Made by a program: the position numbers and the translations under genes. The notes beneath the pieces are model-generated. The model was not told the origin of the DNA, did no database searches, and saw only the letters and a program-made list of their open reading frames with translations. Of a DNA stretch of 64,000 bases, positions 52,473 to 58,961 are shown in pieces. Origin of the DNA: Thiomonas intermedia (lineage in GTDB: Bacteria > Pseudomonadota > Gammaproteobacteria > Burkholderiales > Burkholderiaceae_C); assembly GCF_002028405.1 (NCBI RefSeq), contig NZ_CP020046.1, positions 1,922,001-1,986,000 on the forward strand, read 5' to 3'. Each line of letters begins with the position of its first letter. Position 1 is the first letter of the stretch.

Positions 52473-52506
52473 TGTCTGACACCGTTTGCTCTAAAAGGAA
52501 TTCATC

Positions 52507-52836
52507 ATGGCCACCGTGCAAGCCTATAAAGCCACCAAGAAGTTTGAGACCTTTTCCTACCTGCCGCAAATGACGCCCGATCAGGTGCGTCGCCAGATCG
52601 CCTACGCCATCGCCCAGGGCTGGAACCCCGCGGTGGAACACACCGAAAAGGGCACCTCGGCCCGCGTGAGCTTCTGGTACATGTGGAAGCTGCCGTTGTT
52701 CGGCGAGCAGTCCGTCGACGCGGTGCTGGGCGAACTCGAAGCCTGCCACCGCGAATTCCCTGACCACATGGTGCGTTTCGTCGCTTATGACAACTACGCC
52801 CAGAGCCAGGGTCTCGCGTTCGTCGTCTACCGCTGA
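52507..52836 (+). CDS. cbbS: RuBisCO small subunit
   Basis: 109 residues with the small-subunit signature: [47 protein letters not shown] and [17 protein letters not shown]. It caps the L8S8 complex with CbbL and offers part of the binding site for the CsoS2 N-terminal repeats. AAAAGGAATT precedes the ATG. 71 bp after cbbL. Confidence 0.97.
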
Positions 52837-52846
52837 TCGCAGTTCG

Positions 52847-52874
52847 GGCGTGACGGCCAGGTTGCCGTCGCGCC
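52847..52874 (+). other. Hairpin in the cbbS-csoS2 gap
   Basis: GGCGTGACGG (52847-52856) pairs with CCGTCGCGCC (52865-52874), ten pairs with one G-U, loop CCAGGTTG, starting 10 bases after the cbbS stop. No U-tract. It is placed to give partial termination or to protect the abundant cbbLS message from the less abundant shell-gene message; inference. Confidence 0.5.
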
Positions 52875-52951
52875 GGGTGTCCGGGGCTGCGTGCCCTGGG
52901 CCCAGACAACGAGTTTTCTGAATTCACGACTTCTCTGCATCGAGGTCCACC

Positions 52952-55681
52952 ATGACATACCCTGCCGATCGCCATGCGCAGGCGACCCTCTCGGGTCGCG
53001 AGCTGGCACTCAAGCGGCGCCAGGCCATGGCGCTGCATGGCAAGGCCGGTTCGGCCAAGCCTGCCGCCGCCTCCGTGCGTCAAAGGCCGGAGATGGCGGC
53101 CGCGCTGACTGCTGCCTCTTCGCAGTCGCCGCAGTCGCGTCCTGCCTCCGCTACGTCGGCAGCACCCGTGGTGCGTGCGACCTCGGCATCCGCGTCGCTG
53201 AGTCCGCCTCAGGCGCAGCTCAGCCCTGCCCGTGCGCGCCGTCAGGCGATGTCGCAGCAGGGCAAGCCCGCGGTCAAGCAGGCTGTCAACGGCGGCCCGA
53301 GTCGCCCAAGCGCCCATCTGCGTCCTACGGCTGCAGTGCCCGCCGCGTCCGTCCGCGAGGCGTCTGCCTCCTGCGGTTGCGTCGCGGAGAAGTCCTGCGG
53401 CTGCGGTTGCGCCGACACCGCGTCCTCCCCGGCGCTGTCCACCCAGAGTGCGATGACCGCTCCGGCCGCTGACGTGAGCGCGGCGGTTCGCGCCGTGCCC
53501 ATGGCCGGTGGTCGCGCCCTGGCGCAGGCACGCCGCGCCGCGCTGGCTCAGGATGGCAAAGCCGGCCTGCGCCGCGTGGCCCAGGCCACCAAGATTGCCG
53601 CAGCGTTGCCGGGACAGGATTGGCAGACCGCCATGAGCAAAGGCGCTACCGCCCGTCAGGTAGCCATGCAGCGCCGCCATGTGCAGTCCCTCGTCGGGCG
53701 CGCCGGTGCGACTGCCGATGCCTCGCGCCACAGCGGACGCATGAAGGCTCGCGATACCCGGGCTGCCGTGCCCGTGAAGGTCGAGGAGGGTCATACCCTT
53801 TCGGGCCAGCGCGTGACCGGCACCCAGGTCGAGCGCAGCCAGCGGGTCAGCGGCAACGAGCCCGGCTCCTGTCGCGCCATTACCGGAACCGAATACATCG
53901 GCACCGAACAGTTCGATGCGCTGTGCAAGACCCGCCCGGCGCCCAATGCGCCCAAAGTCGGCGTGAGCACCACCCTGCGCGAACAGCGTGTGACGGGCAC
54001 CGAGGTCGGTCGGTCCACCAAGGTCACAGGCGATGAGCCCGGCGCCTGCCGCGCCATCACCGGCTCCGACTACCTCAGCGCCGAGCGCTATCAGGAGTTC
54101 TGCGAAACCCGTCCCCAGGCCAGCGCCGAGAAGGTCGGCCGCGGCACTACCGAGATGGGTCAGCGTTTCACGGGGACGCTGGTCGACCGCCAGGTCAAGG
54201 TGACGGGTGGCGAGCAGGGGGCGGACCGCGCCCTCACCGGCACCCGTTACAGCACCGCCAGTGCCGATACGGCCCCGAACAAGGTCGAGGTTTCCACGAC
54301 GGCCAGCGGCAAGACCGTGACCGGTACCGGCGTGGGTGCGCGCAAGAGCATGACCGGCGATGAGGCCGGTGCCTGCCGTCCCGTGACCGGCACTCAGTAC
54401 CTGTCCTCCGAGCAGTTCAGCCAGCTCTGCCAGACCAGCGCCCCGACACAGCCACGCAAGATCAGCGTGATGTCGAGCCGCGACGGCCAGAGCGTGACCG
54501 GCACCGATGTGGGTCGCAGCACACACGTCACCGGCAACGAGACCGGCTCGTCCCGCGCGGTCTCGGGCAACCAGTATTTCAACGCCAAGGATTTCGGTGG
54601 CGCCACCGCGTCGGCCCCGGCCAAGGTCAGCGTCATGCAGACGCTGGGTGGACGTTCCGTGACCGGTTCCGAGGTCGCGCCCAGCCCAAAATTGTCCGGT
54701 GACGAGTCGTTCGGGTGCAAACCCGTCACCGGTATCGATTACATCGGCGCCCAGCAGCTCGGCGCCGTATGTGAAGCACCTGAAGCGATTGCCCCGATCA
54801 CCAAGGTCGCGGTCGATCAGACCTGGAATGGTCAGAGAATCACCGGCAGCAACCCTGGCCGCGCTTCGCGGGTCACCGGCAACGAGGCGGGCGCCTGCGC
54901 GCCCATCAGTGGCAACAGCTACATCGGCCAAGGTCAGTTCCAGACGTTCTGCGAGGCGCCTGCGCTGCAGCAGCAACGCAATGTGCAGCGCGACAGCGCC
55001 ACCGTGTCGCTGCGGGCCATCAGCGGCGACCGTCCGGGTGCCGGTGGCTCGGTGATGACGGGCGATGAACGCGGGGCCTGCGGCTCTGTCACCGGAACGC
55101 CCTATCTCGGCCTGGACACCATGCCGGGGCAATGCGCCACCAGCGGCCGCTTCGTGTCGCGTGCGCGTCCTGCCGAAGCGCCGGCTCGCGACGCTGCGCC
55201 CTTCATTTTCAGCATCCTCACGCCCGGCCATGCTTCGCTCGGCCGCGAGCGTGGCATGGATGTGACGGGCAATGGTCTGGGTACCGACCGCCTCACCGGC
55301 TCGATCAACAAGGCCGAAGGCCTGATCACCGGCACGCCCGAGTTCCGCAAGCAGGACATGCAGCGCTTCCAGTCGCAGCAGCAGGACCAGCAGGAAACCG
55401 TGCAGCGTGCGGCACAGCGCCTGACTGGCGAAGGCAGCCAGCAAGGCACCCGGATTTCGGGCGACGTCTGGCTGGAGCAGTCTCGCGTGACCGGAACCGA
55501 AGGTGCATCCAGCCTCGCTCGCAACCCATCGATGCGCGGTCAGCCGCGCGGCATGGGATCGAATGCCGCCACGTTCCGTGAAGTGGAGCGTCCCGAGATT
55601 CCGTCGTCTCGTGTGACCGGTTCTTCCGGCAACACCGAGCGCGGCGCTGCCGTGACCGTCTCAGGCGGCGCGCGCGGCTGA
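52952..55681 (+). CDS. csoS2: Carboxysome scaffold protein CsoS2
   Basis: 909 residues, intrinsically disordered hub that links RuBisCO to the shell. The N-terminal region has four basic helical repeats (GRELALKRRQAMALHGKAG, ARARRQAMSQQGKPA, GRALAQARRAALAQDGKAG, ARQVAMQRRHVQSLVGRAG) that bind RuBisCO. The middle region (about 275-690) has seven repeats with VTGTxV, VTGNEPG/VTGDEPG and AITGTEYI-like blocks, several containing Cys. The C-terminal region (VTGTPYLG, GMDVTGNGLGTDRLTGSINK) attaches to the shell. A slippery site at 54685 predicts a shorter -1 frameshift form. A hairpin-bearing 115-bp gap precedes the gene. Confidence 0.96.
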   Translation: MTYPADRHAQATLSGRELALKRRQAMALHGKAGSAKPAAASVRQRPEMAAALTAASSQSPQSRPASATSAAPVVRATSASASLSPPQAQLSPARARRQAMSQQGKPAVKQAVNGGPSRPSAHLRPTAAVPAASVREASASCGCVAEKSCGCGCADTASSPALSTQSAMTAPAADVSAAVRAVPMAGGRALAQARRAALAQDGKAGLRRVAQATKIAAALPGQDWQTAMSKGATARQVAMQRRHVQSLVGRAGATADASRHSGRMKARDTRAAVPVKVEEGHTLSGQRVTGTQVERSQRVSGNEPGSCRAITGTEYIGTEQFDALCKTRPAPNAPKVGVSTTLREQRVTGTEVGRSTKVTGDEPGACRAITGSDYLSAERYQEFCETRPQASAEKVGRGTTEMGQRFTGTLVDRQVKVTGGEQGADRALTGTRYSTASADTAPNKVEVSTTASGKTVTGTGVGARKSMTGDEAGACRPVTGTQYLSSEQFSQLCQTSAPTQPRKISVMSSRDGQSVTGTDVGRSTHVTGNETGSSRAVSGNQYFNAKDFGGATASAPAKVSVMQTLGGRSVTGSEVAPSPKLSGDESFGCKPVTGIDYIGAQQLGAVCEAPEAIAPITKVAVDQTWNGQRITGSNPGRASRVTGNEAGACAPISGNSYIGQGQFQTFCEAPALQQQRNVQRDSATVSLRAISGDRPGAGGSVMTGDERGACGSVTGTPYLGLDTMPGQCATSGRFVSRARPAEAPARDAAPFIFSILTPGHASLGRERGMDVTGNGLGTDRLTGSINKAEGLITGTPEFRKQDMQRFQSQQQDQQETVQRAAQRLTGEGSQQGTRISGDVWLEQSRVTGTEGASSLARNPSMRGQPRGMGSNAATFREVERPEIPSSRVTGSSGNTERGAAVTVSGGARG
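54685..54732 (+). other. Predicted -1 ribosomal frameshift signal in csoS2
   Basis: The heptamer CCCAAAA (54685-54691) is phased C-CCA-AAA, an exact X-XXY-YYZ site. Four bases later starts a stem CCGGTGACG (54696-54704) that pairs perfectly with CGTCACCGG (54724-54732), with GGGT/ACCC pairing inside the loop. After a -1 shift the ribosome reads ATT GTC CGG TGA, stopping at 54700-54702. The product would be about 583 residues, ending in the sixth middle repeat. Confidence 0.7.
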
Positions 55682-57872: not shown

Positions 57873-58169
57873 ATGGCTGAACGTATGGGCATTGCCCTGG
57901 GCATGATCGAGACGCGCGGTTTGGTGCCTGCAATCGAAGCGGCCGACGCGATGTGCAAGGCGGCGGAAGTGCGACTGATCGGTCGCCAGTTTGTGGGTGG
58001 CGGCTACGTGACCGTGCTGGTGCGCGGCGAGACCGGCGCGGTGAACGCGGCGGTTCGTGCGGGCGCCGACGCCTGCGAGCGTGTGGGTGACGGCCTGGTG
58101 GCTGCGCACATCATCGCCCGCGTGCATGGTGAGGTCGAGGGCATTCTGCCCGAAGCGCCGACGGCTTGA
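57873..58169 (+). CDS. csoS1: Carboxysome hexameric shell protein CsoS1, copy 1
   Basis: 98 residues, BMC-domain hexamer tiling the shell facets: GIALGMIETRGLVPAIEAAD, MCKAAEVRLIGRQFVGGGYV, VRGETGAVNAAVRAGADACE and GLVAAHIIARVHGEVE. Distinct ends are MAERM and PEAPTA. Bases 57891-58150 are almost identical to the two following copies. AAGGAG lies 12 bases before the ATG. The A/B/C naming of the copies cannot be settled from sequence alone. Confidence 0.95.
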   Translation: MAERMGIALGMIETRGLVPAIEAADAMCKAAEVRLIGRQFVGGGYVTVLVRGETGAVNAAVRAGADACERVGDGLVAAHIIARVHGEVEGILPEAPTA

Positions 58170-58238
58170 GCCGGCGGCGAGCCTCGGTTTGGTATTGGTT
58201 TGATCTTGGCGTAATTGCAACCCTTTGAGGAGCGAAAA

Positions 58239-58535
58239 ATGGCGAATGTGAATGGAATTGCCCTGGGCATGATCGAGACGCGCGGTTTGGTGCCTGCAAT
58301 CGAAGCGGCCGACGCGATGTGCAAGGCGGCGGAAGTGCGACTGATCGGTCGCCAGTTTGTGGGTGGCGGCTACGTGACCGTGCTGGTGCGCGGCGAGACC
58401 GGCGCGGTGAACGCGGCGGTTCGTGCGGGCGCCGACGCGTGCGAGCGTGTGGGTGACGGCCTGGTGGCTGCGCACATCATCGCCCGCGTGCATGGTGAAG
58501 TCGAAGGCATTCTGCCTTCCGCACCGAGCGCCTGA
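58239..58535 (+). CDS. csoS1: Carboxysome hexameric shell protein CsoS1, copy 2
   Basis: 98 residues starting MANVNGIALGMIETRG at ATG 58239 (GAGGAGCG upstream), ending LPSAPSA. The BMC core is the same protein as copy 1; bases 58257-58516 differ from copy 1 by three synonymous changes. 69 bp separate it from copy 1. Confidence 0.95.
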   Translation: MANVNGIALGMIETRGLVPAIEAADAMCKAAEVRLIGRQFVGGGYVTVLVRGETGAVNAAVRAGADACERVGDGLVAAHIIARVHGEVEGILPSAPSA

Positions 58536-58622: not shown

Positions 58623-58961
58623 ATGGCAAGTGTGACGGGCATTGCCCTGGGCATGATCGAGACGCGCGGTTTGGTGCCTGCAATCGAAGCGGCCGACGCG
58701 ATGTGCAAGGCGGCGGAAGTGCGACTGATCGGTCGCCAGTTTGTGGGTGGCGGCTACGTGACCGTGCTGGTGCGCGGCGAGACCGGCGCGGTGAACGCGG
58801 CGGTTCGTGCGGGCGCCGACGCCTGCGAGCGTGTGGGTGACGGCCTGGTGGCCGCGCACATCATCGCCCGCGTGCATGGTGAAGTCGAAGGCATTCTGCC
58901 GACCGAGCCCGATGCCGATGGTGGCGGCCGCGACGCCGAAATCACCTCGACCCGCAGCTGA
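58623..58961 (+). CDS. csoS1: Carboxysome hexameric shell protein CsoS1, copy 3 (extended C-terminus)
   Basis: 112 residues starting MASVTGIALGMIETRG, with a tail of 14 extra residues (TEPDADGGGRDAEITSTRS at the end) not found on the other copies. Bases 58641-58900 differ from copy 1 by three synonymous changes. The polar tail may face the lumen or cytosol and give this copy a special role. Confidence 0.95.
   Translation: MASVTGIALGMIETRGLVPAIEAADAMCKAAEVRLIGRQFVGGGYVTVLVRGETGAVNAAVRAGADACERVGDGLVAAHIIARVHGEVEGILPTEPDADGGGRDAEITSTRS

Follow-up and report, generated by a model that had tools for sequence, protein, structure and literature searches.

A conserved predicted -1 ribosomal frameshift element in the sixth middle repeat of Thiomonas intermedia csoS2

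In Halothiobacillus neapolitanus the csoS2 transcript undergoes 50% -1 frameshifting to yield CsoS2A, a 570-residue short form that takes three residues from the -1 frame, and a frameshift of this kind has been predicted in csoS2 of 79 out of 162 species (PMC5009743); the site lies in repeat 6 of the protein (PMC12918739, PMC11365436, PMC11481516). The frameshift goes back to Chaijarasphong et al. 2016, as cited in these four papers. CsoS2A is recruited via its middle repeats, and shells containing it are larger (PMC11481516). Purified carboxysomes of Thiomonas intermedia are reported to hold two CsoS2 forms at about 1:1 (PMC4499774, citing a thesis and a 1999 paper). We analysed a 64,000 nucleotide (nt) stretch of T. 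intermedia DNA (contig NZ_CP020046.1, positions 1,922,001 to 1,986,000; 'the window', whose own numbering is used throughout) and find in its csoS2 gene a site that, judged from comparative sequence analysis, very probably programs a -1 ribosomal frameshift, the one already described for csoS2 of H. neapolitanus. The phenomenon is already known in kind, and at the protein level in this genus; the addition made here is site-level evidence for Thiomonas.

The csoS2 locus and its frameshift site

The csoS2 product matches the Pfam domain CsoS2_M (E 3.6e-166). The gene and the parts of the signal, all on the + strand, are as follows.

52952..55681, +: csoS2, with frame 0 product CsoS2B (909 residues, ~93.6 kDa calculated)
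52952..54702, +: predicted CsoS2A reading (583 residues, ~59.8 kDa calculated, ending ...VAPSPKIVR), in frame 0 through codon 580 and then in -1
54623..54742, +: middle repeat 6 of CsoS2, located by repeat profile, which carries the signal
54685..54691, +: slippery heptamer C CCA AAA in X XXY YYZ phase; codons 579 and 580 are CCA and AAA
54692..54695, +: spacer, 4 nt long when counted to the outermost pair, 6 nt to where the stem is invariant
54696..54704, +: 5' arm of the putative stimulatory stem, CCGGTGACG
54700..54702, +: -1 frame stop TGA, within the 5' arm, which requires the Gly codon GGT
54706..54707, +: 5' side of the upper stem, pairing with 54721-54722 (G54706-C54722, T54707-A54721)
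54721..54722, +: 3' side of the upper stem, partner of 54706-54707
54724..54732, +: 3' arm of the putative stimulatory stem, CGTCACCGG, coding Val-Thr of the third VTG

The two arms, CCGGTGACG and CGTCACCGG, are exact reverse complements and form a perfect 9-bp stem that begins after a 4-nt spacer from the heptamer. In the -1 frame the codons at the site read CCC AAA ATT GTC CGG TGA, or Pro-Lys-Ile-Val-Arg-stop, and the short product would retain the N region, followed by five and a half middle repeats, and lack the C-terminal region. An original prediction, made from the letters of this stretch, had proposed most of this: the heptamer in exact phase, which holds base for base; the perfect stem after four bases; the -1 shift that reaches TGA after three codons to give a CsoS2A of about 583 residues, which the sequence bears out; the position in the sixth middle repeat at residue 580, with which the repeat profile agrees; and kinship to the H. 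neapolitanus frameshift, whose short form is the 570-residue protein (PMC5009743). As a mass-spectrometric marker it had named a C-terminal peptide ending Ile-Val-Arg; that end is correct, but the tryptic peptide IVR is too short to serve unless a cleavage is missed.

The proposed mechanism is that of a tandem slip. With tRNA-Pro on CCA in the P site and tRNA-Lys on AAA in the A site, a ribosome on csoS2 would meet the GC-rich stem 4-6 nt downstream; the stem would resist unwinding, and both tRNAs could re-pair one base upstream, on CCC and AAA. A shifted ribosome would then add Ile-Val-Arg and terminate at the TGA inside the stem, releasing the 583-residue CsoS2A, and unshifted ribosomes would continue to the 909-residue CsoS2B. 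The sequence, its phase, its conservation, the synonymous constraint and the covariation of the stem are read directly from the genes; that ribosomes slip here, how often they do so (about 50% in H. neapolitanus) and what each form does is inferred.

The likeness to H. neapolitanus csoS2 extends to the gene, the sixth middle repeat, the direction of the shift (-1), the three residues added in the new frame, a 3' stem-loop and two protein forms. The Thiomonas short form differs in being longer (583 versus 570 residues), because the protein itself is longer (909 versus 869). CcmM of the beta-carboxysomes belongs to a different protein family and reaches its short form by a different route. Its long and short versions nevertheless offer the analogy, drawn in PMC4499774, of one scaffold protein in two forms, and csoS2 shares with dnaX of Escherichia coli, with which it is compared in PMC5009743, a heptamer followed by a 3' stem-loop and two products in similar amounts.

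Conservation of the site across csoS2 genes

Homologous genes were collected with PF12288, which was positive in 10 of 13 genomes of the genus, 16 of 399 of the family (one of these, G110, fell below the family cut-off and was unused), 72 of 369 of the class and 2 of 398 of the phylum; translated scans added genome contigs (10 loci) and plasmids (2 records). Dropped before any count were L001-L007 (same contigs or genomes as other loci), L021-L030 (overlapping stretches) and L114, and second csoS2 copies or pieces in G746, G644 and G595 were unused. Removal of duplicates left 96 csoS2 genes, to which two from one family were added to make 98, some of them ending at contig edges (e.g. L016, L048, L078, L090).

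At alignment column 1297, 30 of these 98 genes carry an in-phase heptamer whose Y is A or T; it is CCCAAAA in 26 and CCCAAAG in 4. All 30 have a -1 TGA exactly three codons after the heptamer, a stop that the search did not demand. The original prediction had put forward conservation among close relatives as a check, and the genus of this Thiomonas keeps heptamer, -1 TGA, spacing and stem in 10 of 10 csoS2 genes; both of two genes fetched after the pattern was known carry the signal as well. Beyond the genus, the 30 carriers come from two further genera of its family, from a Nitrobacter plasmid, from one assembly each of Thiobacillus and Rhodospirillales, from L010 and from eight additional families. 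CCCAAAG is the form found in L073, L095 and L110, which belong to one genus, and Thiomonas has CCCAAAA. By the repeat profile the site falls in repeat 6 in 28 of the 30, the window's gene included, and in the fifth repeat in L009; in L010 the repeat is unrecognised. The 68 non-carriers comprise 59 with gaps at this column, 4 (genus g25) that are spuriously aligned there, and 5 that possess the repeat but lack the heptamer. Nine more in-phase CCCAAA[AG] occur in the other csoS2 genes, none of them at column 1297.

The carriers were first chosen by a pattern containing CCCAAA[AG] and GGTGA, such that the invariance of those letters follows from the choice; the column search, which did not ask for the stop, recovered the same 30 genes. 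The pattern itself gave 31 matches, from which L077 was left out as its match lies near residue 238 and the 3' arm is missing.

Slippage by RNA polymerase on the A run, which would produce a mixed population of mRNAs, has in its favour the AAAA at 54688-54691. A run of four A is too short for polymerase slippage, 4 of the 30 sites read AAAG, and such slippage would require neither a downstream RNA stem nor the tandem codon phase; we consider the probability of this explanation negligible.

Two observations on other positions in these genes belong here. In L048 and L077, of one genus, an in-phase CCCAAAA with a -1 TGA after three codons stands near residue 238-241, on the border between N and middle regions; in L077 this match is without a fitting 3' arm. 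In L097 csoS2 shows a second open frame; it and the first cross a stretch of N, which we read as an assembly gap and not as a second shift.

Stem structure and synonymous constraint

The stem was evaluated on the 25 distinct sites among the 30 (alignment A1, from which five rows identical over the stretch were removed). RNAalifold returns a stem of 7 bp topped by an upper part of 2 bp; counted together with two outer pairs, the stem is paired in 96.7% of cells, with both-sided change at 3 pairs. Its covariation score is 0.186 compared with 0.074 in shuffles, none of which (0 of 500) reached it, and pairing falls below 48% when the partner is shifted along. Covariation is clearest in the pair of columns 23-40, corresponding to 54707-54721 (U-A 10, C-G 9, G-C 5, other 1), a pair untouched by any selection step. 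The original prediction had worried that a stem built on repeated VTG codons might be partly incidental, a concern the stability figures speak against: the stem is more stable than in synonymous shuffles (z below -1) in 27 of 30 carriers, with a mean of -2.1, and in 12 genes the corresponding position of the other repeats passes that level in 18 of 68 cases, with a mean of -0.3.

An alternative in which the element is a conserved pause site or RNA structure aiding co-translational assembly, with little or no frameshifting, would also account for a stem that is conserved and covaries, and pausing belongs to elements of this type. An in-phase heptamer and a -1 stop at a set distance would both be superfluous for a pause, yet the stop stands at three codons in 30 of 30 genes, and we judge this explanation extremely unlikely.

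The GGG/CCC hairpin inside the stem, which the original prediction had counted as inner pairing, was rejected as a conserved feature, since its covariation is no better than that of shuffles (63 of 500 reach it); it belongs to the minimum-energy fold in Thiomonas and is possible there alone, and the upper part with support consists instead of G54706-C54722 and T54707-A54721. For an H-type pseudoknot, the best pairing of the loop with the 40 nt downstream was at the level of codon shuffles (mean z 0.2; above 1 in 5 of 30). In the window a GAGGT at 54671-54675, which encodes Glu-Val, lies 9 nt upstream of the heptamer; a conserved upstream Shine-Dalgarno sequence was not found, with GAGGT present up to 20 nt upstream in only 17 of the 30 carriers. 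The E. coli dnaX signal combines an A AAA AAG heptamer with an upstream Shine-Dalgarno stimulator, and csoS2 differs from it in this partial occurrence of GAGGT.

Constraint on synonymous positions is centred on the same stretch. In a set of 14 Thiomonas-like genes (the 10 of the genus plus L032, L034, L111 and L008), synonymous mismatch is 0.114 in the 15-codon window that opens at CCA versus 0.434 gene-wide, rank 1 of 822, and codon choice is free again at the Gly following the 3' arm (7 GGT, 7 GGC). For all 30 carriers and for 16 genes of other lineages, the top rank (1 of 712 and 1 of 636, respectively) goes to the window that opens one codon ahead of CCA, with the CCA window second; for the 10 genus genes alone the heptamer-stem window ranks 1 of 902. 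Because the genes had been chosen by their heptamer, the calculation was repeated with CCA, AAA and GGT masked, and for the other lineages with a 15-gene set without L008, at which the 16-gene set had overlapped the Thiomonas-like set, and without L010. The ranks are then 1 of 712 (all 30), 1 of 630 (the 15 genes) and 3 of 902 (the genus), the last lowered from 1 and now behind a stretch at the start of csoS2. The five genes with the repeat in which Ser/Ile-Arg/Lys replaces Pro-Lys and the heptamer is absent (L042, L043, L074, L086, L096) rank 149 of 897 over the same columns, rising to 32 of 897 when masked.

Individual codons are biased too. All 30 carriers use GGT for the Gly that creates the -1 TGA, compared with 43 of 176 at the remaining G[DNG]E positions of these genes; for the Val encoded by the 3' arm all 30 use GTC, compared with 208 of 504 elsewhere (Fisher p 2.6e-16 and 1e-11, values that are too small since the tests count related genes as independent). 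The heptamer Lys is AAA in 26 of 30, compared with 150 of 809 elsewhere.

These figures also bear on the idea that the short form arises by proteolysis of CsoS2B and that the protein motif PK..GDE..GC..PVTG gives rise to the nucleotide pattern as a side effect. The stem arms do encode the repeated VTG and GDE motifs, and a C-terminal truncation in H. neapolitanus was reported in PMC4499774 without a mechanism. The constraint, however, sits on synonymous positions, as in the Gly and Val codons above; the clade that has the repeat and lacks the heptamer is less constrained; and L010 retains heptamer, TGA and stem though the VTG motifs of its repeat are lost. Proteolysis is on this evidence very unlikely as the source of the pattern.

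Several points must temper the conclusion that the element directs a frameshift. Taken alone the site is not improbable and would be suggestive only: the 69-nt fold has -21.4 kcal/mol and z -0.62 versus dinucleotide shuffles, 50 of 200 of which fold at least as well, and among 2000 synonymous codon shuffles of csoS2 an in-phase CCCAAA appeared somewhere in 315, together with a -1 stop within 10 codons in 134, and at the exact same site in 92. Four of the eleven stem pairs are invariant and the two outer ones are broken in 2 and 5 of 25 sites, so that covariation rests mainly on one upper pair, and the covariation shuffles leave relatedness among the sequences in place. In H. neapolitanus, csoS2 placed at a neutral site yielded only CsoS2B (PMC11365436), and therefore context may matter; the last residue of CsoS2A assigned with confidence by matrix-assisted laser desorption/ionization (MALDI) was R573, compared with a length of 570 (PMC4499774).

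Elsewhere in the genome comparable sites are sparse. The other long open reading frames (ORFs) of twenty 20-kb stretches plus the window, 139,151 codons in which csoS2 is uncounted because a longer antisense ORF displaced it, contain 5 in-phase CCCAAA, with -1 stops after 5, 6, 25, 28 and 88 codons, and the pattern heptamer-6nt-GGTGA-14..30nt-GTCACC has a single occurrence in the whole genome. Once homologous csoS2 genes are compared, their sequences exclude chance, because the signal is retained even though synonymous sites around it vary.

The finding supports the presence of two scaffold forms in Thiomonas carboxysomes, with the ribosome setting their ratio; for the element itself it supplies RNA-level evidence from 30 csoS2 genes. 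With one orthologous site, synonymous mutants could cleanly probe the role of CsoS2A in carboxysome size and Rubisco packing. Recoding of csoS2 for transfer to plants can silently remove one isoform.

Evolution of repeat 6 and neighbouring observations

A quick unrooted tree built without the region needs at least 3 state changes for the signal, 2 of them forced by starred branches; gain and loss are indistinguishable on it, and the homology of a single repeat is partly ambiguous. Eight non-carriers (seven from two genera of the same family, plus L060) share one starred group with 20 carriers, which suggests that the repeat was lost in those eight. In 63 genes there is neither a true counterpart of the repeat at the column (59 gaps, 4 spurious alignments) nor a signal.

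L010, from the metagenome-assembled genome SKS3.bin93, has its site at about residue 446 of csoS2, where the VTG motifs have become ARG and VTA and the heptamer, -1 TGA and stem are kept; its outermost stem pair is changed on both sides, from C-G to G-C. It is conceivable, if rather unlikely, that repeat 6 is kept largely as the carrier of the frameshift element, with the RNA signal outranking the protein motif. If true, the CsoS2A:CsoS2B ratio, and hence carboxysome size, would evolve by gain or loss of a repeat rather than by tuning. The five genes without the heptamer listed above form a clade in which CsoS2 is long (969-1004 residues from stop to stop) and includes a repeat-6 homologue; they represent either a precursor state or a counter-example to the repeat-as-carrier idea, and provide a natural control.

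Two other candidate sites were considered. In genus g25, one of the two same-family genera just mentioned among the non-carriers and without repeat 6, G GGT TTT is followed by a -1 TGA after seven codons in all four genes first sampled (L031, L036, L038, L039), with an 8-bp stem seen by eye after 5 nt (one G-U pair in L036), although the minimum-energy folds pair otherwise; seven of the eight most constrained windows, out of 617 in these four genes, lie at the GGGTTTT site. Wider sampling found csoS2 in 7 of 11 g25 genomes and added three genes. L140 retains the heptamer, L138 lacks both the protein stretch and the heptamer, and L139 has the same protein stretch written with GGA TTT and GGC GAC, hence neither heptamer nor stop. 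With 5 of 7 genes carrying it and synonymous loss tolerated, GGGTTTT was rejected as a conserved frameshift element. A weak candidate is A AAT TTT with a -1 TGA after three codons near residue 530-560, close to the end of the middle region, in the related genes L049, L067, L077 and L100; its windows rank 11-25 of 659, and the 16 other genes shown are without the heptamer.

The stretch at the csoS2 start with little synonymous change, the second such stretch among the 10 genus genes, occupies alignment columns 261-264 and is perhaps an effect of translation start. An open frame of 979 codons on the minus strand (52505-55444) runs opposite cbbS and most of csoS2; it exceeds csoS2 in length and misleads gene callers that favour the longest ORF.

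The alpha-carboxysome operon of the window comprises RuBisCO large and small subunit genes, csoS2, and genes for CsoSCA, EutN_CcmL and BMC proteins, with CbbQ further on and DabA upstream. Three csoS1 genes of the window (57873-58169, 58215-58535, 58623-58961) differ at both ends and are nearly identical in DNA over ~250 bases, as if homogenised by gene conversion.

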